Of a DNA stretch of 24,006 bases, positions 128 through 18,895 are shown in pieces. The notes below the pieces were generated by a model. The model ran no database searches, was not told the origin of the DNA, and was given only the letters and a program-made list of their open reading frames with translations. Each line of letters opens with the position of its first letter. Positions within the stretch are counted from its first letter, which is position 1. A program made the position numbers and the translations under genes. Source of the DNA: a virus. Location of the stretch: positions 1 to 24,006 of the IMG/VR virus record IMGVR_UViG_3300032607_001308. The stretch is one strand, 5' to 3'.

Positions 128-795
128 TTGATCACGATCAGGTGGGCGTATTTCATTTGGGATCCAGCAACGATGGTGGCGGTTCTGTTACCAGTGGCTC
201 CGGATGCGGTGAGGGTCTGCGTGGCGACCATTGTGTTCAAATAACGGACCGTTGAGAGTGAGCGGAAGTTTGAGTTGACTCGCTGAGTCATTGAACCCGG
301 CGCGGTCAAGGTTCCTAGACCGCTGTACGCCTCGCTGCTCCACATTCCCACAAGCACACCGTTTGTCGTGGTGGCGTTGAGCGAAAGGCCAGTAAGGCCG
401 GAATACATATCTCCCGGAGCATCTACGGCAGTCGCACCGGAGATGGCGACGATTGACATTTGAGCGCCACTCCAGTTCGCACCGCCTGTCCAAGTAAACG
501 AGGGTTCCGAGGCTCCGGCCGTTTTCGTGTAGACGGCGCTCCAGTGGGGGGGGTTGTAGGAGTCATACGCGTAACCTCGCCTTGTCCAACCAGCGTATGT
601 TTGATTTCCTTCGGTTCCCGACTTTGGATCGTAACTTATGTAAGCGTGAGCGATGAGGATGTCACCAGCAACAACACCGGCTGGCATCGGACAGACCATC
701 GTTGCATTCTGCGTTGTGATGGTCGACGCTGAACGAAACGCAGGCGGACCAGTCGCAACTTCAACATGGCTTGAAGCGACAATCCCTGGAATCAT
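124..795 (-). CDS. Tail fibre / minor tail protein (beta-rich)
   Basis: This 223-residue protein is rich in Thr, Ser, Ala, Gly and aromatic residues and has the short alternating strands of a beta-sandwich. The segment around residues 43-50 (AGDILIAH), followed by GWTRRG near 69-74, resembles a pattern often seen in phage and bacterial surface proteins with a Gly-Asp-x-Leu strand followed by a Gly-Trp turn. I infer a distal tail or receptor-contacting protein, because it directly follows the collagen-like fibre gene and ends the visible tail-fibre block. The start at 795 is chosen because it overlaps the upstream stop as ATGA and has GGAG about ten bases before it; the frame extends further upstream, but only through the neighbouring gene. 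The exact receptor role is not visible from sequence. Confidence 0.7.
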
Positions 796-1367
796 GCGCT
801 GAGATCTCCAATGGCGACCCAACTGTCGGTTCCACGCTTTATCAAAGAAACAGCGGCGTATTGCGCTCGAGTTTTGAGACCAGGAGTCGCGTTGATAGTG
901 ACACCAGAACCTGGAGTCAATGTGATCTGTCCTGCTCCTGTTTGGAGAATGTGGATTTGGCTTCCGACAGTGAATGCCGCTGAACTATTTGGCGGGACTG
1001 TGACAGCAATGGCGGAAGCGTTGCTGCATTCAACAAGTTTTTGTTCGTCAGCGAGGACCAGTGTGTAGGTGGTTCCGCTTTGAGCGTTAGTTGTCAAGGT
1101 AAGAGTTGCGGCTGCTCCTGTTGCTCCTGTCGCACCCGTGGCTCCGGCTGCACCCGTGGCTCCGGCTGTTCCTGCTGCACCCGTAGCTCCGGTTGCTCCT
1201 GCCGCTCCTGTGGCACCCGTGACTCCGGCTGCACCCGTGGCTCCGGCTGCGCCTGTGGCTCCTGCCGGTCCTGCTGGACCGGAAATGCCAGAAATGACAA
1301 TCTCCGGAACACCGAGTGTCAGATCTACAGTGTCGGTTCTTTGGGTAAGTGTCACCTGTTGACTCAT
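792..1367 (-). CDS. Collagen-like tail fibre protein
   Basis: This 191-residue protein has three parts. Residues 1-29 are a short beta-like N-terminus. Residues 30-86 are 19 uninterrupted Gly-X-Y triplets, mostly GAT and GAA, with two GPA triplets at the start. Residues 87-191 are a Thr/Val-rich globular domain with strands such as [15 protein letters not shown], a form common in phage fibre heads. Collagen-like repeats form trimeric rods in phage fibres, so a homotrimeric fibre shaft with a C-terminal head is likely. The triplets are rich in Thr and nearly free of Pro after the first two, as in bacterial collagen-like proteins that lack hydroxyproline. The gene overlaps both neighbours as ATGA, so expression with the BppU-like protein and the next fibre protein is probably coupled. 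Confidence 0.85.
1110..1280 (-). repeat. Collagen Gly-X-Y coding repeat (19 triplets)
   Basis: The stretch codes for 19 Gly-X-Y triplets. At DNA level it is an imperfect tandem repeat of 9- and 18-base units, such as GGAGCCACGGGTGCAGCC read on the minus strand. Repeats of this kind can expand or contract by recombination or slippage in whole triplets, changing fibre length without breaking the frame. Confidence 0.85.
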
Positions 1368-11266: not shown

Positions 11267-12301
11267 CTAACGACTCGTCAGGGTTGTCGGAAGAGCTGAG
11301 ACACAATCCAGCATGTGTCGGACATTATTGTCGAAGGTTCGGTCTGCTATCGCGGTTCGCGCTTTCACAGCGGCGTCTTGGCGTTTGTCGGGATGTGCGA
11401 GCCACCATCTTAGTTTCTCACCGAACTCTTCGGGGGTTGTGAATGATGGAAGCATTGAAAGAACATGGTCAGATTCTGGGCGTGGTTCTCGGAGGAAGAA
11501 GGTTCCGGTGGCTGCGAGTTCTATTTCTCGAGGCCCCATCGCCCATCCTGTGTCGAAGCCGTCGGCTCCTTCTTTGCGGTAAAGGTTGGCGGAGGCGTTG
11601 GTGGATGAGTAAAGGTCGGCGGCGTCTTCATTGGGGAAGCAGCCTTCGGGTTGGTGGATGAGGAATCGTTGGAGAGGTGAGTGTTGGTCGAGGTCTTGCC
11701 AGTTGCCGGCGAAAGCGACGTCAATGTTGGTCCAGTCGACTTGTTCGAAGAAGGCGATTCGGGATGGGAAGGCGGTTCCTACCCAAGCGAAGTCGGAACG
11801 AAGATCTGTTTGGGGTTCTCGTCGATAGTGGATTTCGGGGTCGTATGCCTGGGGACTGTAGAAGGTGTGGGGTTGTGTTTGGCGGAAGGTGTCGAGGTTG
11901 CTTGGGTCGTTGATGAAGGCGATGTCGGCTCGAGCTGCGATTGGTTGCTGTGATGGGTCTTCGTAGGGGGATTCGGTGAGGATGACGGCGATTCGGATTC
12001 CTCGTGAGCGGATGATGTCGAAGGTTTCGGGTGGTACCAGGAAGGCGGAGGTGATGACGACGAGGTCGGGCCAGAAGTCGAAGCAGGTGGCTCGGAGTTG
12101 CTCACCAACCATTCGAGCGGCCATGTGGGCTTTCTCTAGTTCAGGGACTTTGCCTCTGATGGCGTTTTCGCTGAAGTTGATTCGGTCGGCGAGGTTGAAG
12201 TTTTGGGTTTGGTTGCCGGTTCGTCGGAAGGCTTTGAGCCATCCGTTGTGGACGTCTGCGACGGAGAATGCTGGGCCGGGTTCTACTGTCAGGATTCGCA
12301 C
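11267..12301 (-). CDS. CgeB-like glycosyltransferase (GT-B type)
   Basis: This 344-residue protein looks like a GT-B glycosyltransferase of the CgeB / Glyco_trans_1_2 group. The N-terminal half alternates strands and helices (W-P-D-L-V-V-I-T-S near 77-85, R-I-A-V-I-L-T-E-S near 102-110). The C-terminal half holds the nucleotide-sugar site, with G-P-R-E-I-E-L-A-A-T-G-T-F-F-L (about 258-272), where a Glu contacts the donor, and then T-P-E-E-F-G-E-K-L and a closing basic helix. It transfers a sugar from an NDP donor to an unknown acceptor. The start is GTG at 12301, directly after the upstream TAA. It lies between a terminator-like gene and the major tail gene, so a virion tail protein is a plausible substrate. 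Confidence 0.75.
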   Translation of the reverse strand: MRILTVEPGPAFSVADVHNGWLKAFRRTGNQTQNFNLADRINFSENAIRGKVPELEKAHMAARMVGEQLRATCFDFWPDLVVITSAFLVPPETFDIIRSRGIRIAVILTESPYEDPSQQPIAARADIAFINDPSNLDTFRQTQPHTFYSPQAYDPEIHYRREPQTDLRSDFAWVGTAFPSRIAFFEQVDWTNIDVAFAGNWQDLDQHSPLQRFLIHQPEGCFPNEDAADLYSSTNASANLYRKEGADGFDTGWAMGPREIELAATGTFFLREPRPESDHVLSMLPSFTTPEEFGEKLRWWLAHPDKRQDAAVKARTAIADRTFDNNVRHMLDCVSALPTTLTSR

Positions 12302-12697
12302 TTAGCCGAGAACCTCAATGTTCACTTCGACACCCAAATATTCGATGCCGCCGATACTGAAGGTTCCGGGGTTATTCCATGAGGTGACGCGTGCCGAGTC
12401 GCAGGATCCGTTGAGGGTGGGGTTGGCGTCGACTACGTAGTACACGGAGTCGGTGCCTTGTCCAAGGAAATCGTCGAGGCGTTGCTGTCCAAGTTGATCG
12501 TCTGCCCTGGTGAGCATGACAAGGACGCCATAGTTGACAGACATTCCCTCATTGAAGTCGGCGTCGTATTGGCCGGTTCCAAGAGAAACAACAGCTGCTG
12601 GCGGTTGAATCGTTGAGGGGATCCATTCGTAGATTCGAAGGTTGTTGACGTTTTGGAGGGTATCGCTGATGCCTGCGCGTACTGATGCCAGGTTCAT
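12302..12697 (-). CDS. Tail terminator-like protein
   Basis: This 131-residue protein begins with a helix (S-V-R-A-G-I-S-D-T-L), then an I-Q-P-P-A-A-V-V-S-L strand (about 30-39), a G-V-L-V-M-L-T-R strand (about 57-64), a D-D-Q-L-G-Q-Q-R-L-D-D-F-L helix and a final Y-L-G-V-E-V-N-I-E-V strand. This alternation matches the small neck/terminator proteins found between the head-tail connector and major tail protein in siphoviruses. Such proteins cap the tail tube and mate with the head. The start overlaps the connector stop as ATGA. I call it by pattern and place; a head-closure (stopper) protein is the main alternative, and no other stopper candidate is evident. Confidence 0.62.
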   Translation of the reverse strand: MNLASVRAGISDTLQNVNNLRIYEWIPSTIQPPAAVVSLGTGQYDADFNEGMSVNYGVLVMLTRADDQLGQQRLDDFLGQGTDSVYYVVDANPTLNGSCDSARVTSWNNPGTFSIGGIEYLGVEVNIEVLG

Positions 12698-13326
12698 CCG
12701 ATGACCAAACCTTGGCCTCGAAGGCGGAATGGGGAGATGAGCATTTTGACGTCTGGGTCAATGAGGGTTGAGACTCGAATGGCTCCGAAGCCTTCACCGG
12801 CGGCGAAGCCTTCTGGGGTTTGCGCGCGTCGGTAGAGGCGGGATGCTTGGATGAGGCAGGCTTGTTCGATTGAGTGTGGGACTGCTGCCCAACCCCATTT
12901 GGCGGTGACTTGGATTCGTGGGCGTCGGCCGGTTACGGGAAAGAGTTTGGGGATGGTGGCGATGATGACGTTGTAGGGCTGGCTGGTGACTCCGCCGACT
13001 GTCGCGTTGAGTGGCTCAAGGATGTATTCGGTGGCTGCCCATGTTTGGTCGAAGGTTCCGTTGTCGCCTGTGTCGACTTTGATGATGAGGCCGGTGATGG
13101 TTGAGAAGTCGTCGACTGTGCATCGGATGGGAGTGTCGGAGTAGTAGACGCGCTCTGAGACTGAGGCGTCGAGGAAGAAGCGTCGGTTGGTGAAGTTGTC
13201 AATAATCCGTGACGCTGCTTCGATGGCGCCTTCCATTTGGGCGTCTTCTGCTGTGCCGTAGTTCGCTGAGGGGAACAGGTAGGCCTTGAAGTCGTTGAGG
13301 GTGGTGTAGCCGTTGGTGATTGCCAT
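12694..13326 (-). CDS. Head-tail connector (adaptor) protein
   Basis: This 210-residue protein has an N-terminal helix bundle (L-N-D-F-K-A-Y-L, then M-E-G-A-I-E-A-A-S-R-I-I-D-N-F-T-N-R-R-F, about 31-50), a beta region, then W-G-W-A-A-V-P-H-S-I-E-Q-A-C-L-I-Q (about 142-158). The helix ending in N-R-R-F and the W-G-W-A-x-V-P helix start are hallmarks of phage head-tail connector proteins of the HK97 gp6 / SPP1 gp15 type, which form a ring under the portal. The ATG at 13326 is preferred over one four codons earlier, because it overlaps the upstream stop as TAATG and has GGAG six bases before it. That places it in direct translational coupling with the last gene of the sugar cassette. Confidence 0.78.
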   Translation of the reverse strand: MAITNGYTTLNDFKAYLFPSANYGTAEDAQMEGAIEAASRIIDNFTNRRFFLDASVSERVYYSDTPIRCTVDDFSTITGLIIKVDTGDNGTFDQTWAATEYILEPLNATVGGVTSQPYNVIIATIPKLFPVTGRRPRIQVTAKWGWAAVPHSIEQACLIQASRLYRRAQTPEGFAAGEGFGAIRVSTLIDPDVKMLISPFRLRGQGLVIG

Positions 13327-14000
13327 TATTGGCTCCATTTGGTTCGGAGTCGGATGATGTTGTCGTTGACTGCTGACCAGCGTTCAGCGCCGGATTGAGA
13401 CTCCAAGTGCGTGACAGTTGCTTGTGGATCGTAGACGTTACGGAAGCCTTTTGCGATGGATGCCAGACAGAGGTCGACGTCTTCGTAGCCGTTCCAGTAG
13501 CCGGTGTCGAAGCCTCCGAGGTCGGTGAAGAGTTGCCGGCTGATGGCGAGACAGGCGCCGGTGATGGCGTCAACGTCGGCGAGTGTTTCAGCCCAGTTGG
13601 TGTTGAGGTTCCATGCTTCGAGTCCTGGTGGGCGGGTGAAGTCGACTGCTATTCCGGCTGATTGGATTGTGCAGTCTGGGTAAATAAGTTTTGGTCCGAC
13701 AATCCCAATGTCTGGTTCCTCGAGGTGTCGGGTGATGGAGGTCCAGTTGGGGTGGACGATGGTGTCGTTGTTGAGGAAGATGAGATGGTCGGCGGTTGCG
13801 TGGCGTGCGCCGATGTTGCAGGCGGTCGCGAAGCCTGTGTTGATTTTGAGTGAGTGGGTGGCGAGGCGTTCACTGCCGTCGGTGGATCCGTTGTCGATGA
13901 CGATGACTTCGTCGACTGGGTCGTGGCGTTCGATTGAGGCGAGACAGTTTTGGGTGAGTTCGATTCGGTTGAAGGTGGGGATGATGACGGCGATGGTCAT
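13326..14000 (-). CDS. Glycosyltransferase family 2 (GT-A)
   Basis: This 224-residue protein is a clear GT2 enzyme: I-I-P-T-F-N-R near 6-12, DNGSTDGS (36-43), FLNNDT (74-79, equivalent of the metal-binding D-x-D), GGFD then YEDVDLCLA (catalytic Asp in the E-D motif, about 181-189), and a later conserved His (T-H-L-E, about 205-208). It resembles rhamnosyltransferase/WbbL-like enzymes. It would move a sugar from a nucleotide donor to a growing glycan or protein acceptor in the cytoplasm. There is no transmembrane segment. Its start overlaps the preceding glycosyltransferase stop as ATGA and its stop overlaps the connector start as TAATG. Confidence 0.88.
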   Translation of the reverse strand: MTIAVIIPTFNRIELTQNCLASIERHDPVDEVIVIDNGSTDGSERLATHSLKINTGFATACNIGARHATADHLIFLNNDTIVHPNWTSITRHLEEPDIGIVGPKLIYPDCTIQSAGIAVDFTRPPGLEAWNLNTNWAETLADVDAITGACLAISRQLFTDLGGFDTGYWNGYEDVDLCLASIAKGFRNVYDPQATVTHLESQSGAERWSAVNDNIIRLRTKWSQ

Positions 14001-14740
14001 GGGGCGGGATCGTAGATGAGGCCGTTTTCTTCACAAAGTTTCCGCCAGGTTGCCCAAAGCATGGCGTCGTCGTATTCGCCGAGTTGCCGCCAGTGCGCCC
14101 CGTAAGTGGGGTGGAGGTTGGTGGCTTGGTAGGCGGCTAGTCCGTTTCGGGCTTTGGTGACGAGCTGTTCGAAGGAGCGGTATTGGTAGTGGCGGTAGTT
14201 GAGTGCTTGGGCGTGAAGGCCGGGGTGGTTGAAGATGAAGTGGTTTCCGAAGTCGATGTGGATGTCGGGGTGGTAGCGGAAAGCGACTTTGCCCATTTTC
14301 TGTGGGGTGAGCCGGCGATGGGTGGTTCGTCGGAATGGTGAAGTTTCGGTGGGGTCGTCGTCGTCGCTGACGATGTGGTCCCAGCCGGTGGCGGTGATGA
14401 TGTCGGCGGTTGCTTTGCTGAAGAACTCGGCGAGGGTTCCGCCGGTCCAGTAGAAGTATTCGTCGGCATCAAATGGGAGGATCCATTCGGCGTCGAAGTC
14501 GGCGGCCGCTAGGTGTGCTAGGTCGGTCATTTTCTTGTCTTGGTAGTAGCCGGGTTCGTCGTCTTGGATGACTGTGACTTTTCCTGTGCTGGCGAGAGCT
14601 GCAAGTTTCCAGCCGGTTTCGTCGACGGAAAGGTTGTCGGCGACGATGATGTGGTCGACGCCTTGGTCAAGTAGGTGTTGGAGTGTCCAGTCGATGATGT
14701 CTTCTTCATCTCGAACCATCGTGATAGCGACCACGCTCAT
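13997..14740 (-). CDS. Glycosyltransferase family 2-like (Glyco_tranf_2_4 type)
   Basis: This 247-residue protein starts M-S-V-V-A-I-T-M-V-R-D-E-E-D-I-I-D-W, the typical opening of the Glyco_tranf_2_4 group (K/R-N/D-E with a following W). It continues with G-V-D-H-I-I-V-A-D-N-L-S-V-D and FDADEYF (about 89-95), whose D-x-D-E is the metal and donor site. A His-rich stretch (Y-H-P-D-I-H-I-D-F-G-N-H, about 156-167) and R-H-Y-Q-Y-R-S-F follow, as usual in this group. The start is fixed at 14740 by AGGAGGA six bases upstream and by ATGA overlap with the acyltransferase. The acceptor is unknown. Confidence 0.85.
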   Translation of the reverse strand: MSVVAITMVRDEEDIIDWTLQHLLDQGVDHIIVADNLSVDETGWKLAALASTGKVTVIQDDEPGYYQDKKMTDLAHLAAADFDAEWILPFDADEYFYWTGGTLAEFFSKATADIITATGWDHIVSDDDDPTETSPFRRTTHRRLTPQKMGKVAFRYHPDIHIDFGNHFIFNHPGLHAQALNYRHYQYRSFEQLVTKARNGLAAYQATNLHPTYGAHWRQLGEYDDAMLWATWRKLCEENGLIYDPAP

Positions 14741-15315
14741 TTGATCCTCCTGGCTGGTACGCCAACCCAAGTCGAGTTTGGTGGAATGTTTTGTCTGGGT
14801 AGGACCACTGTTCCGGCGCCGATGGTTGCTCGAGGGCCGATCTCGGCGAGGTTGGAGATGACTGCTCCTGCTCCGATTTGGGCGCCGGCTCCGATGGTGA
14901 CGTGACCACAGATCGTGGCCCCTGGTCCGATGGTGACGAAGTCGCCGATTTGGGCGCGTGTGATGAAGACGTTTCCATTGATGTGGCTGTGTCGCCCTAC
15001 ACGGGTTTTGGGGCCGATAGTGGTGTGTGCGCCTATTACGACACCGGGGAGGGCCTGTAGGGTCGAATGAACGGCTGCTGAGGGGTGGATGGCTGTGGCC
15101 GCTCCGTTTGGTCTGTCTAAGGCTTCTCGGATTCGGCTGTTGTTGTGGCCGATCAGGTAGCGGTCATACAACTCGAGGTCTAGGCATGGGCCGAGAATGT
15201 CGGGGCCGTCGATTTCATCATCCAAATATCCGGCGAAGGGTTGGCCGGAATCTTTCAAGATGGCAGCGATGTCTTGACCATGACCACCAGCGCACAAGAT
15301 CACCACTGGACTCAT
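14737..15315 (-). CDS. NeuD/PglD-type sugar O/N-acyltransferase (left-handed beta-helix)
   Basis: This 192-residue protein has the N-terminal PglD_N strand-loop V-V-I-L-C-A-G-G-H-G (about 4-13), which binds the nucleotide-sugar. From about residue 90 there are hexapeptide repeats (V-V-I-G-A-H, T-T-I-G-P-K, A-Q-I-G-D-F and later copies) and the closing W-V-G-V-P-A-R-R-I-K. Relatives transfer acetyl or other acyl groups from CoA to sialic acids or to UDP-amino-sugars. The usual catalytic His just before the I-G-D-F turn (pattern G-H-D) is not there: the aligned residues are Thr119-Arg120. Both ends overlap neighbours as ATGA. No sugar aminotransferase or dehydratase is in the window, so the sugar would come from the host or from elsewhere in the phage. 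Confidence 0.85.
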   Translation of the reverse strand: MSPVVILCAGGHGQDIAAILKDSGQPFAGYLDDEIDGPDILGPCLDLELYDRYLIGHNNSRIREALDRPNGAATAIHPSAAVHSTLQALPGVVIGAHTTIGPKTRVGRHSHINGNVFITRAQIGDFVTIGPGATICGHVTIGAGAQIGAGAVISNLAEIGPRATIGAGTVVLPRQNIPPNSTWVGVPARRIK

Positions 15316-15944
15316 AGTTGGTAGTTCCGTGAACGTCGGATCCCAATGTGGATGGTTTTCGGGTCGTCGCCTAGTTCGCCAAGATATCCGAAACGCCAAT
15401 CATCCGCCAACAGATTGGCCGTCAGATCCGCTTCTAACCCTGCCCGGTAGTCGCGTGCCACACCTATGGGGTACAGGCAAGGGTTGAAAGTGAAGAGATG
15501 TGACTGCTGGACGAATCCGTATTTTTGTTTGAAGCGATCAGGTTCGATTGAGTAAATGCCGCCGGCCTGCTGCTCCTCCGGCGACCACGGCTGGCGAAGC
15601 AAAGCAACCTGGGCGAGTTCCGGTTCGTACTCGAGAATCTCAATCATCAGTTCAATGTCGACCACGTCTGGGAAGATGAAGTCGTCTTCGAGGTGAAAGA
15701 CATAGTCGATGTCTTTGTCTAAAGCGTCCCAGCCGGATTGAATGGCACCGGCCAAACCCCGTCGAGGCGTGTTCTTTACAAACTCGAAGCCATCAGGACA
15801 GAAACCTTTTTCTTCGCCTGAGTCGTCCACCAGAATCTTTTGATGCCACGGCCAGTCAAGAGCTACAGCAGCGGACTCGAGGGTGCGTTGCAGATAATCC
15901 CAACGGCCGTCAGTGATGACCATGAGCGCCAGTTTCGGGATCAT
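15312..15944 (-). CDS. Glycosyltransferase, GT-A type
   Basis: This 210-residue protein opens with L-A-L-M-V-I-T-D-G-R-W-D-Y-L-Q-R-T-L, the first strand and helix of a GT-A fold, then ILVDDSGE (about 37-44), a G-L-A-G-A-I-Q-S-G-W helix and YVFHLEDDF (81-89), whose L-E-D-D is the metal-binding acid cluster. It ends with a Gly/Arg-rich strand. It is a short, single-domain enzyme. The ATG at 15944 is chosen because it overlaps the upstream stop as ATGA; a longer start nine codons earlier lies inside the previous gene. The acceptor is unknown; it probably acts in sequence with its coupled neighbours. Confidence 0.78.
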   Translation of the reverse strand: MIPKLALMVITDGRWDYLQRTLESAAVALDWPWHQKILVDDSGEEKGFCPDGFEFVKNTPRRGLAGAIQSGWDALDKDIDYVFHLEDDFIFPDVVDIELMIEILEYEPELAQVALLRQPWSPEEQQAGGIYSIEPDRFKQKYGFVQQSHLFTFNPCLYPIGVARDYRAGLEADLTANLLADDWRFGYLGELGDDPKTIHIGIRRSRNYQL

Positions 15945-17368
15945 TGAACCTGCACCCCATGTCTCGCCCAACGGCGCATGAAAGCGGCCTTGTCTTTGGC
16001 AAGCTGCTGCTGCATCACTGGGTCTTCCCAGTTGCCAGTCTTCGAGCCTCCGTCGATGTGTTCCACTGTGGTTTGGGTTGCCATGCCATACCAGGCGCCG
16101 GCCATGTCAACAGAGAGGACGAGGTCGTTGTCTCCGAACCACCATTTGCAGTCTTCGGGGAAACGCCAGCCTTCTTGGAACCATTCCGACTTCACCATGA
16201 AAGCGAAGCCGGCGAGGCCGCCGGTTCCGTCATAGCGGTCGGCACAGATGCCGTGGAGTTGGACCACGGTTTCCACTGTTTCTCGGCCGTCATAGTTCGG
16301 ACAAATCGCCACCATCTGATGGTCGGAACGTAACCCTGCCGCCATCGTCGAAATGAACTTGTCACCGATGACGATGTCGTTGTTGAGGAAAGCGATGTTG
16401 CATTTGTGATGCCGGTTTATCGCCCATGTCGCTCCGACATTCCACATTTCGTGGATACCCATTCCTTCACAATCCATCACCTTGGCGAAGGTTTGAGACC
16501 CCAACCATTTCACGGTTTCAGGGTTGGAGCCGTTGTCGAGGACGAGGATGCCGTCGTGTTCGCCCTGGTCATGCAGCTGCAGTAGGAGCGCCTTCGTCAT
16601 TTTCAGATTGTCTTTGACAGGCACTAGAACAAAGTTTTTTGTAGGCACAAGTTCGGGCGGTACTTGCGGCCAGAAGTCTCGAGTGGTCAGTGTCCGCTTT
16701 TTGATGTGGCCGACTTCGATGGTGGTGTCGACAATGCAGGGAAAGCCGACCGCTTGCGCGCGCAGGCTGAACACATAGTCTTCGCCCATGATGTCGTGGA
16801 TTTCTTCACCGGTTTCTGGGTCGGTGTAGTCCCACTGCGCATATTTGAACCAGGGTTGAGCGTCTTTTCGGTTGGCGTCCCAAATCTTTTGGAGGACTGT
16901 TCGGTGGAGGAGGACACATCCGGAGCCGACAGCGCCGACCTGCCAATGCTGCTCAGGTGGGATTGTTGGATATTCGCGTGGTATGGGCGGATCTAATGTT
17001 TCGAAGCCAATGCAGGCCGGAACGATTCGGTGATGAGGATTCCACTTTTCCGCCATGATGAGCGCCGAAAGGATGGGGCGTTCGATTGGGTCGGCGGATT
17101 CCAGCATGACGTCAACGAGGTCGAAACGGAAACGCTGGTCGGTGTCGATAAACAGCAGCCACTCAGCGTCACCCTCGAGGAAGGTTCGGACGACAAAGTT
17201 TCTCTGTTGAGGCAGGTTGGTTCCTGCTTGGGCGATCATCCATCCGGCGTGGTCTAGACAGCCGGCGGTTTTTTGATCCCAAGATTTCAAGGCGAGAAGG
17301 GAGAATACGAAGTCGGGTTCGAAGCTGCCATAGATGATTCCGATGGCGACTTTGCCTTGCTTTGCCAC
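15941..17368 (-). CDS. Two-domain glycosyltransferase (tandem GT-A)
   Basis: This 475-residue protein appears to hold two GT-A domains. Domain 1 (about 1-240) has LLFIDTDQRF (71-80) with a D-x-D, V-G-S-G-C-V-L-L near 147-154, and GEDYVFSLRAQAVGF (195-209) with the E-D catalytic pair. Domain 2 (about 245-475) repeats the theme: ILVLDNGS (274-281), AFLNNDIV (326-333), G-L-A-G-F-A-F-M (384-391), GDNDLVLSV (412-420) and VEHIDGG (435-441). Such a fusion can add two sugars in turn. The start is GTG at 17368 with AAGGAG five bases before it, so this gene begins its own translation and is not coupled to the capsid gene. It heads the sugar cassette. Confidence 0.85.
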   Translation of the reverse strand: MAKQGKVAIGIIYGSFEPDFVFSLLALKSWDQKTAGCLDHAGWMIAQAGTNLPQQRNFVVRTFLEGDAEWLLFIDTDQRFRFDLVDVMLESADPIERPILSALIMAEKWNPHHRIVPACIGFETLDPPIPREYPTIPPEQHWQVGAVGSGCVLLHRTVLQKIWDANRKDAQPWFKYAQWDYTDPETGEEIHDIMGEDYVFSLRAQAVGFPCIVDTTIEVGHIKKRTLTTRDFWPQVPPELVPTKNFVLVPVKDNLKMTKALLLQLHDQGEHDGILVLDNGSNPETVKWLGSQTFAKVMDCEGMGIHEMWNVGATWAINRHHKCNIAFLNNDIVIGDKFISTMAAGLRSDHQMVAICPNYDGRETVETVVQLHGICADRYDGTGGLAGFAFMVKSEWFQEGWRFPEDCKWWFGDNDLVLSVDMAGAWYGMATQTTVEHIDGGSKTGNWEDPVMQQQLAKDKAAFMRRWARHGVQVQ

Positions 17369-17373
17369 TGTGG

Positions 17374-17379
17374 CTCCTT
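17374..17379 (-). promoter_or_regulatory. Ribosome binding site of the first sugar-cassette gene
   Basis: AAGGAG on the minus strand lies five bases before a GTG codon at 17368. It decides that start, as no ATG is near, and it abuts the G-quadruplex repeat. Confidence 0.75.
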
Positions 17380-17382
17380 GTC

Positions 17383-17423
17383 GGGGGTGTCGGGGTGTCG
17401 GGGGTGTCGGGGAAATATCGGGG
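17383..17423 (+). repeat. Tandem TGTCGGGG repeat with G-quadruplex motif
   Basis: Five runs of four or five G on the plus strand (17383-17387, 17392-17395, 17400-17404, 17409-17412, 17420-17423) are separated by TGTC three times and then by AAATATC. This fits the canonical G-quadruplex pattern. For the leftward operon the G-rich strand is the template strand, and the mRNA carries CCCCGACA repeats. It lies between the capsid hairpin and the first glycosyltransferase gene. Confidence 0.85.
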
Positions 17424-17431
17424 AGGCGTGG

Positions 17432-17467
17432 ACCGGACCCCCCAGCCCCGACGCTGGGAGGTCCGGT
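17432..17467 (-). terminator. Hairpin downstream of the capsid gene (attenuator/terminator candidate)
   Basis: The arms 17432-17446 and 17453-17467 form a 15-pair, GC-rich stem (14 Watson-Crick pairs and one U-G in the transcript) with a six-base loop. It begins 18 bases after the capsid stop codon. No U-run follows, so it may be a partial terminator, a transcript stabiliser or an RNA-processing boundary and not a classical intrinsic terminator. Confidence 0.7.
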
Positions 17468-17485
17468 TCACTTCTTGTCAGACGA

Positions 17486-18895
17486 TCAGACCTTCAGCAC
17501 CTTGAAGGCGTTGGAGGTGATGACGTCTGCACCGGTACGCCAGAAGGCGAAGAATCCGGCTTGACCTGTTGGGCGCTGGTTGGAACCCATGACCATCGGT
17601 TCATACATGATCTCGACGCCGATGCGGTCGACGATCTTGTAGCCGGTTCCGAAGTCGCCCAAGACGAGGACGAAGTCGTTGGAGCCGGAAACAATGGTCG
17701 TGTCCATTGCCTCGTTCTGGTAGGTGTTGTATCCGATGAGCTGAGCCGGAAGGCCGCCACCGAAATCAGACCAGAAGTTGGTGCGGGAGTCGGTCACGCT
17801 ACGAAGCTCGTTATAGGTCGCCTTCGCTGCAAGGAATGAAGCGTCGCGACGGAAACGTGAGCCAAGTGCGTTGTCGAGGGCGTAGGCGTCAGCGGCCACA
17901 AGGTTCGCTGCTCCTGCTGCACCCGACGTGCCGTTGACAACTGGGCCGGTGCCAGAAAGGCGGGTGATCAGACCGAAAGGCTGACCCGAACCGGTGCCAC
18001 TGATGTAGCAAATCTCTTCGAGACGATCCTTGGCGTCGGCGATGAGTTCGGCGACCTGGTTGAAACCAGAGTCGGCGAGGAACTCGTATGAGCCGAAGAG
18101 GAACGCTGCTGCCTTGTGGACCGAAATGGTCGGGCCTTGGAAGGTCGGAGTCGCGTCAGCGGCTTCGGTGCCTTCTGCAAGCCAGTCAGCGGTGACGCCT
18201 GCTGAAGTGACGCCATCCCACTGGTCGGTTGTGATGGACACAACGTCAGCCAACTGGCGGACAGCATTTGCCGAACCGGCGTTCGTGAGAACGATGGTCG
18301 GATCCAAGAACTGAGGAACAAGTACGCCACCGTTTGCCGCTGTAAGCGACATCGCTGCGCGTGCTTCACCCTTGCTCAGAATGCGAGGCATACCGGCCTG
18401 GGGGTTCTCAATGTAATCCTCGAAAGCCTGAAGGTACTCTGGGGAGGATGTGCGGACGATGTGGCGGGCCACAACATCGGCGTCCAACTTCGAGCGGCGT
18501 TCGATGAGCTTGGTTGCATTCTCACGGGCTGCGTCGTCGACGTAGGACGGGAGGTGCTTTTCGATTACTTCAAGCGCACGGCCTCGGAGTTCCGAGCCAC
18601 CATCGGCGGCGAGGGTTCCGTGATCGAATGCGTCGCGTGAAGTGTGAGTGTTGACGTTGATGGAGGTCATTGCTCCGTCTCCTGTTTCTTTGGCGGCTGG
18701 TGCAAAGTCGGCAATACGAGCCTTGCGCTCTTCGAGGGCGACAAGTTCGGCCTCTGTTGCGCGTACAAACTCGACGCCGGCTTCCCATGAAGCCTGTTCG
18801 TCTGGGTCAAATGAACGCTCTTCAGCGTCTGAGTGCATTTCGCGAAGGGCGGCTTTGACATAGTCAACGCCTTCGCGGAGGTTCTTTTCGTCCAT
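17486..18895 (-). CDS. Major capsid protein, HK97 fold
   Basis: This 469-residue protein has the layout of HK97-type capsid proteins. A charged, helical N-terminal region (about 1-65, rich in Glu and Arg) probably acts as the scaffolding delta domain removed by the protease. A linker and an Ala/Glu helix follow, and from about residue 170 the capsid fold starts with G-G-V-L-V-P-Q-F. Typical later segments are A-D-W-L-A-E-G-T-E-A (about 228-237), the G-T-G-S-G-Q-P-F-G-L loop (about 299-308) and the C-terminal G-V-E-I-M-Y-E-P strand. AAGGAG lies seven bases before its ATG, and the start overlaps the protease stop as TAATG. It is followed by a strong hairpin, in keeping with separate control of its high expression. 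Confidence 0.93.
   Translation of the reverse strand: MDEKNLREGVDYVKAALREMHSDAEERSFDPDEQASWEAGVEFVRATEAELVALEERKARIADFAPAAKETGDGAMTSINVNTHTSRDAFDHGTLAADGGSELRGRALEVIEKHLPSYVDDAARENATKLIERRSKLDADVVARHIVRTSSPEYLQAFEDYIENPQAGMPRILSKGEARAAMSLTAANGGVLVPQFLDPTIVLTNAGSANAVRQLADVVSITTDQWDGVTSAGVTADWLAEGTEAADATPTFQGPTISVHKAAAFLFGSYEFLADSGFNQVAELIADAKDRLEEICYISGTGSGQPFGLITRLSGTGPVVNGTSGAAGAANLVAADAYALDNALGSRFRRDASFLAAKATYNELRSVTDSRTNFWSDFGGGLPAQLIGYNTYQNEAMDTTIVSGSNDFVLVLGDFGTGYKIVDRIGVEIMYEPMVMGSNQRPTGQAGFFAFWRTGADVITSNAFKVLKV

Follow-up and report, generated by a model that had tools for sequence, protein, structure and literature searches.

A glycosyltransferase cassette between capsid and connector genes

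We analysed an entire IMG/VR virus record (IMGVR_UViG_3300032607_001308), a linear fragment of 24,006 bases that we refer to as the window. All of its annotated genes lie on the minus strand, in the order terminase, portal, protease, capsid, cassette, connector, tail terminator, glycosyltransferase (GT), major tail protein, tape measure, tail proteins, amidase and exonuclease. The cassette, our subject here, consists of five genes in the slot between the capsid and head-tail connector genes; it is preceded by a conserved RNA hairpin, and a further GT gene lies among the tail genes. The features, from upstream to downstream, are:

17486..18895, minus strand: major capsid protein, HK97 fold, upstream flank of the slot (PF05065, E 1.4e-39)
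17428..17471, minus strand: conserved hairpin after the capsid gene, loop GUCGGG(G) (18-pair helix, covariation)
17380..17412, minus strand: four tandem CCCCGAC tail repeats, complementary to the loop, candidate pseudoknot partner (sequence complementarity)
15941..17368, minus strand: GTA_dbl, predicted tandem GT-A glycosyltransferase, 475 amino acids, GTG start (N-terminal half PHROG 34859 glycosyltransferase, E 6e-12; C-terminal half Glycos_transf_2, PF00535, E 1.3e-5; AlphaFold and Foldseek)
15312..15944, minus strand: GTb, GT-A glycosyltransferase, 210 amino acids (Glycos_transf_2, PF00535, E 1.6e-5; EDD motif invariant in 38 sequences)
14737..15315, minus strand: AcT, PglD/VioB-like left-handed beta-helix protein without the canonical catalytic His (Hexapep, weak PglD_N, VioB match)
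13997..14740, minus strand: GT2c, Glyco_tranf_2_4 glycosyltransferase, 247 amino acids (PF13704, E 1.6e-13)
13326..14000, minus strand: GT2d, GT2 glycosyltransferase, 224 amino acids (Glycos_transf_2, PF00535, E 5e-19)
12694..13326, minus strand: head-tail connector, downstream flank of the slot (PHROG 442, E 1.5e-14)
11267..12301, minus strand: CgeB-type GT-B glycosyltransferase, 344 amino acids, between the tail terminator and major tail protein genes (Glyco_trans_1_2, PF13524, E 9.6e-12, above the curated cut-off)

Four ATGA overlaps couple the five cassette open reading frames, the GT2d stop and the connector start share TAATG, and the GT genes are co-located and co-oriented with the virion structural genes of the window. 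An earlier note, made by a model from this sequence, had described a five-gene block here; its coordinates and its ATGA and TAATG junctions proved exact, and its enzyme family labels agree with Pfam and PHROG family searches. All five genes are present, but the set was incomplete, since the note overlooked the GT gene at 11267-12301, and its description of the locus also passed over the hairpin between the capsid and first GT genes at 17428-17471.

The cassette is conserved in close relatives and under purifying selection

A scan of viral contigs with GTA_dbl gave 46 loci, and all but the distant L046 (34%) share one gene order: capsid, GTA_dbl, GTb, AcT, GT2c, GT2d, connector, terminator, CgeB-type GT and tail tube, as far as each contig reaches. 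The earlier note had suggested looking for the same block in related phages; since its order recurs in 45 other contigs, the five-gene arrangement is not a product of chance. The five cassette proteins are about 56-100% identical across the close-relative loci. With the CgeB-type enzyme as query, the viral contig scan gave 51 loci, the gene being in the same place wherever its context was examined, and a scan of cellular genome contigs with GTA_dbl found no cellular or prophage copy.

The median pairwise ratio of nonsynonymous to synonymous substitution rates (dN/dS) is 0.087 for GTA_dbl, 0.17, 0.18, 0.24 and 0.24 for the other four cassette genes, and 0.15 for the CgeB-type gene, compared with 0.06-0.23 for portal, capsid, connector and tail genes. 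All six enzyme genes are therefore under purifying selection, with constraint like that of structural genes. The DxD-type and acidic catalytic motifs of the GTs are invariant, or nearly so, among 28-38 orthologues. Given dN/dS values like those of structural genes and these invariant motifs, the cassette appears to encode working enzymes.

The description of GTA_dbl as a double GT-A enzyme is supported by its AlphaFold model (pLDDT, a per-residue confidence score, of 74), whose full-length Foldseek matches are the tandem GT-A enzymes K4CP, R699, LH3, LARGE1 and COLGALT1. Against these matches, whole-chain template modelling (TM) scores are low (about 0.3), which reflects a domain arrangement that is different or poorly predicted. 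The model of the CgeB-type enzyme has a pLDDT of 54, and its putative GT-B assignment comes from the domain match.

A PglD/VioB-like protein without the canonical catalytic histidine

AcT matches Hexapep (E 8e-18) and, below that family's curated cut-off, PglD_N (E 1e-3); its nearest solved relative is VioB (E 1.5e-24). It carries a nucleotide-sugar-binding N-terminal domain and a hexapeptide beta-helix, and retains the GGHG and LDD motifs. The catalytic histidine of PglD is His125 (PMC8040287). In sequence alignments, Arg takes the equivalent position in all close homologues of AcT (34/34), and either Arg or Gln does so in the distant ones (6/6); most AcT homologues have a one-residue deletion at the same turn. 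By this comparison, AcT fails a defining catalytic feature of canonical PglD/NeuD/VioB N-acyltransferases.

AcT could nonetheless be a genuine acyltransferase if catalysis has passed to another residue, perhaps in its HxH at 108/110 (numbered without the initiator Met), in which case the glycan would carry an acylated amino sugar. The retained fold and nucleotide-sugar motifs, strong purifying selection, and the invariance of HxH even at 34% identity are all consistent with this. Set against them are the replacement of the family's catalytic His throughout the close and distant homologues, and the fact that no aminotransferase gene that would provide a 4-amino sugar was recognised among the phage genes. 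On balance, we regard acyltransferase activity as a serious possibility that falls a little short of an even chance. Because the AcT family is without the canonical PglD catalytic His, an acylated glycan is unproven.

A covarying hairpin and a candidate pseudoknot ahead of GTA_dbl

The hairpin and the tail repeats occupy the spacer between the capsid and GTA_dbl genes (17369-17485, minus strand). Across 13 distinct sequences, every one of the 18 helix pairs is kept (100%), and eight of its pairs have two-sided changes, compared with a mean of 2.1 in shuffled data (0/500 shuffles). The spacer has an unremarkable folding energy (z -0.44), so the claim for a hairpin rests on this covariation, by which it is well supported. 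No match to the RNA element at or above the gathering threshold was found in Rfam 15. We rejected an intrinsic terminator for the window clade, in which no U run follows the hairpin and no terminator-like site was called; in the relatives L075, L079, L082 and L103, a hairpin is followed by T's.

The hairpin loop is the reverse complement of CCCCGAC, the last copy of which touches the GTA_dbl ribosome-binding site, and we propose a candidate pseudoknot in which loop and tail pair. Changes to the loop-tail helix within the window clade are G-U only, and single-locus loop-tail shuffles are weak there (p about 0.07-0.2 for most). In other lineages the hairpin is a different one, again with a covarying stem, and the complementary loop and tail sequences close to the start of the GT gene are particular to the lineage, with the loop/tail pairs CGCAGGG/CCCTGCG, TGCCCGTGGT/ACCACGGGCA and CCTGCCTGT/ACAGGCAGG, as well as CCTAGAC/GTCTAGG and CCTAGAT/ATCTAGG, both of which overlap the ribosome-binding site. 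Between lineages, loop and tail change in step. When loops and tails were swapped among 11 lineages, which had been picked after the complementarity was seen, the summed match was 47.5 +/- 5.9, compared with 82 for the true pairs (0/100,000 permutations). No clear loop-tail match was found in L072-L075, L079, L087, L093 or L112. A regulatory role is likewise a proposal: pairing of the loop with the repeats at the ribosome-binding site would probably hold enzyme output below capsid output.

Other glycosyltransferase sets fill the same slot in more distant relatives

Each scan retained at most 80 loci, so sampling of the slot leans towards near relatives. With the connector as an independent query, capsid and connector genes are both visible in 46 distinct records, 13 of which have the window-type cassette. 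In the remaining 33 (32 plus the cultured Pontimonas phage phiPsal1), the slot is filled by other GT sets in every case (33/33). Most of these sets combine a GT4-like GT and a GT2 with one to three variable genes, drawn from a CTP_transf_like nucleotidyltransferase, GT17, a 2-oxoglutarate (2OG)-Fe oxygenase, a methyltransferase and additional GTs. Four relatives with alternative sets (L072, L085, L106 and L113) have a GTA_dbl homologue, two of them together with a CgeB-like gene. With the capsid as query, a GT is the first gene after the capsid in 69/69 contigs with enough sequence, with a GT2 next and then a varying series of genes as far as the connector. In the diverged contig L200, the slot reads capsid, GTA_dbl, AcT, GT2c, GT, connector. 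No GT was found in the slot of the soil actinophages Jflix2, Eyre and prophiGD02-2 (3/3), which have related capsids or connectors.

Beyond these phages, in the cyanophage Mae-JY09 (a Microcystis phage; L286, 4995-6179), a GT with 36% identity to that of phiPsal1 follows soon after the capsid gene, which suggests that phages with different hosts have received genes in this slot by transfer or have come to use it repeatedly.

Some contigs have further genes of interest. At L101:8528-8989 and other cluster C2 loci, a CTP_transf_like nucleotidyltransferase (TagD-like by eye) follows two GTs in the slot, hinting at glycerol-phosphate or similar decoration, and cluster C8 (L068:2688-3452 and L063) has a 2OG-Fe(II) oxygenase within the GT slot, which would possibly hydroxylate an acceptor residue or sugar. 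In Caudovirales GX15bay (L285, 5369-10492), several GTs and a methyltransferase lie upstream of the terminase, in a block that includes adjacent homologues of GTb (32%) and GT2c (37%).

Host and likely target

Two relatives of 34.85 and 34.87 kb hold genes for WhiB, an Rpf-like transglycosylase, a primase-polymerase and a nuclease, and are probably near complete, because gene content matches at both ends. The presence of WhiB indicates an actinobacterial host. Scanning cellular genome contigs with the connector gave only two contigs from metagenome-assembled genomes, one of them assigned to Acidimicrobiia, and the host can thus be placed no more narrowly than within Actinobacteria. For phiPsal1, the associated bacterium is a Microbacteriaceae strain (PMC6106888). 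No base-modification or sugar-nucleotide genes were recognised in the two relatives of about 34.9 kb, part of whose open reading frames were profiled. It is therefore probable that the enzymes draw their nucleotide sugars from the host, and unlikely that they glycosylate DNA.

We consider it probable that the cassette is a virion-glycosylation module of an aquatic actinophage. This reading builds on computed gene content and order, conservation, selection, slot occupancy and hairpin covariation, from which we infer the target, the sugar chain, the order of action and the role of the RNA. The enzymes, soluble and expressed with the late structural operon next to the genes for capsid and tail tube, would draw on nucleotide sugars of the host and assemble a short glycan on one of the virion proteins, most likely the capsid and/or the tail tube. 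GTA_dbl may act early, as it persists in some relatives that lack most of the cassette; the chain would then be lengthened by GTb, GT2c, GT2d and the CgeB-type enzyme, and AcT would bind or tailor a nucleotide amino sugar via a non-canonical active site, or would be a pseudo-enzyme.

Several points weigh against virion glycosylation. The glycan and its virion acceptor are predictions from gene content, position beside virion genes is evidence of co-expression rather than of target, and a tblastn search of 50,697 phage records with the five GT proteins, a comparison at sequence level, gave no Mycobacterium phage among the organisms tallied, although such relatedness is not strictly required of a virion-glycosylation system. 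The enzymes might instead modify a host surface glycan during infection, blocking superinfection or stopping released virions from re-adsorbing. Phage GTs that alter the host surface are well known, for example in Gtr-type serotype conversion, and multi-enzyme sets suit a polysaccharide. Yet a sequence check found no membrane-spanning segment in any of the six enzymes, no flippase or lipid-linked sugar gene was recognised in the two near-complete relatives, and the genes lie within the block of late virion genes, at one fixed place between capsid and connector in every relative sampled, a placement that is late for superinfection exclusion. The location in the late operon, and the fact that no membrane or lipid-linked enzymes were seen, make virion proteins a likelier target than the host envelope, and we consider host-surface modification unlikely.

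A third possibility is that the GTs glycosylate modified phage DNA bases as a protection against restriction. Phage DNA glucosyltransferases exist, as in T4, but five GT proteins that include GT2 types do not resemble the known pattern, the genes sit among head genes, and no hydroxymethylase, TET/JBP-like or thymidylate-synthase-like gene was recognised in the profiled part of the two relatives. We therefore consider this very improbable. The authors of work on cultured Nanopelagicales phages, related actinophages, proposed that these phages' GTs protect DNA or modify the cell wall (PMC10202952), in line with one or the other of these alternatives and at odds with a virion target.

The earlier note had envisaged an acylated oligosaccharide of four or more sugars on the virion. 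Virion glycosylation is the best-supported part, given the late structural operon, the fixed slot, soluble enzymes, no base-modification genes seen and the mycobacteriophage precedent discussed below; the acyl part is weakened by loss of the catalytic His. Four or more sugars are possible, since the five GT proteins, including the CgeB-type enzyme, have six GT domains, although this is a count of genes and not a glycan structure.

The fold matches of GTA_dbl to collagen galactosyltransferases led us to consider a collagen-like tail protein (792-1367, minus strand) as acceptor; we dropped this candidate because its Thr-rich repeats are not kept in relatives. These repeats are Thr-rich GAT/GAA in the window and Gln-rich GAQGPQG in L162:6657-8192 and L163:6835-8055.

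Significance and comparison with known systems

Virion glycosylation is already known in a few cultured actinobacteriophages. New here are a fixed multi-enzyme cassette, its dedicated slot, the contents of which can be exchanged, and the conserved RNA element that precedes it; the cassette is invariant across dozens of environmental phages, and elsewhere the slot carries alternative sugar-tailoring sets. We tentatively propose that a large, uncultured aquatic actinophage clade has a dedicated capsid-connector locus for interchangeable virion-decorating glycan cassettes, with a post-capsid mRNA pseudoknot, conserved in architecture and not in sequence, that sets the dose of the first GT. If the virion is the target, glycosylation would belong to the core biology of these freshwater and coastal viruses and not be an accessory, and the exchange of entire cassettes at a single site would be a natural experiment on virion sugar function without animal immunity. 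The RNA element, if our proposal is true, would be a rare pseudoknot that balances synthesis of structural proteins and modifying enzymes.

The T4 gene 32 leader (PMC3014915) likewise has a phage mRNA pseudoknot ahead of a ribosome-binding site. By contrast, the window has a long covarying post-capsid hairpin whose loop could pair with any of several tandem tail copies, and its architecture, a candidate known from sequence, recurs with different sequences. PglD, VioB and PerB N-acyltransferases share with AcT the N-terminal nucleotide-sugar domain (GGHG, LDD) and left-handed beta-helix, and differ from it at the catalytic His and in the length of that turn. The tandem GT-A enzymes (K4CP chondroitin polymerase, mimivirus R699, LH3, COLGALT1 and LARGE1) have two GT-A domains per chain, as predicted for GTA_dbl, but are only about 10% identical to it, with another domain arrangement and other substrates.

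The closest cultured parallel in gene order is phiPsal1 (MG835450), which has GTs exactly between its capsid and neck genes, a connector about 36-41% identical to that of the window and a similar late gene order, although its slot holds a GT4-like GT, a methyltransferase and one GT2; the paper describing it does not discuss these GTs (PMC6106888). Mycobacteriophages Che8, Corndog and Myrna are reported to glycosylate virion proteins (Freeman et al. 2023, by way of PMC12363180). They resemble the window in having phage-encoded GTs with virion structural proteins as targets, the target being a probable one for the window. They differ in that the window system is known from its genes, without tblastn homology to mycobacteriophage enzymes, and places five GT proteins and a PglD-like protein at fixed positions between capsid and connector and between terminator and tail tube.

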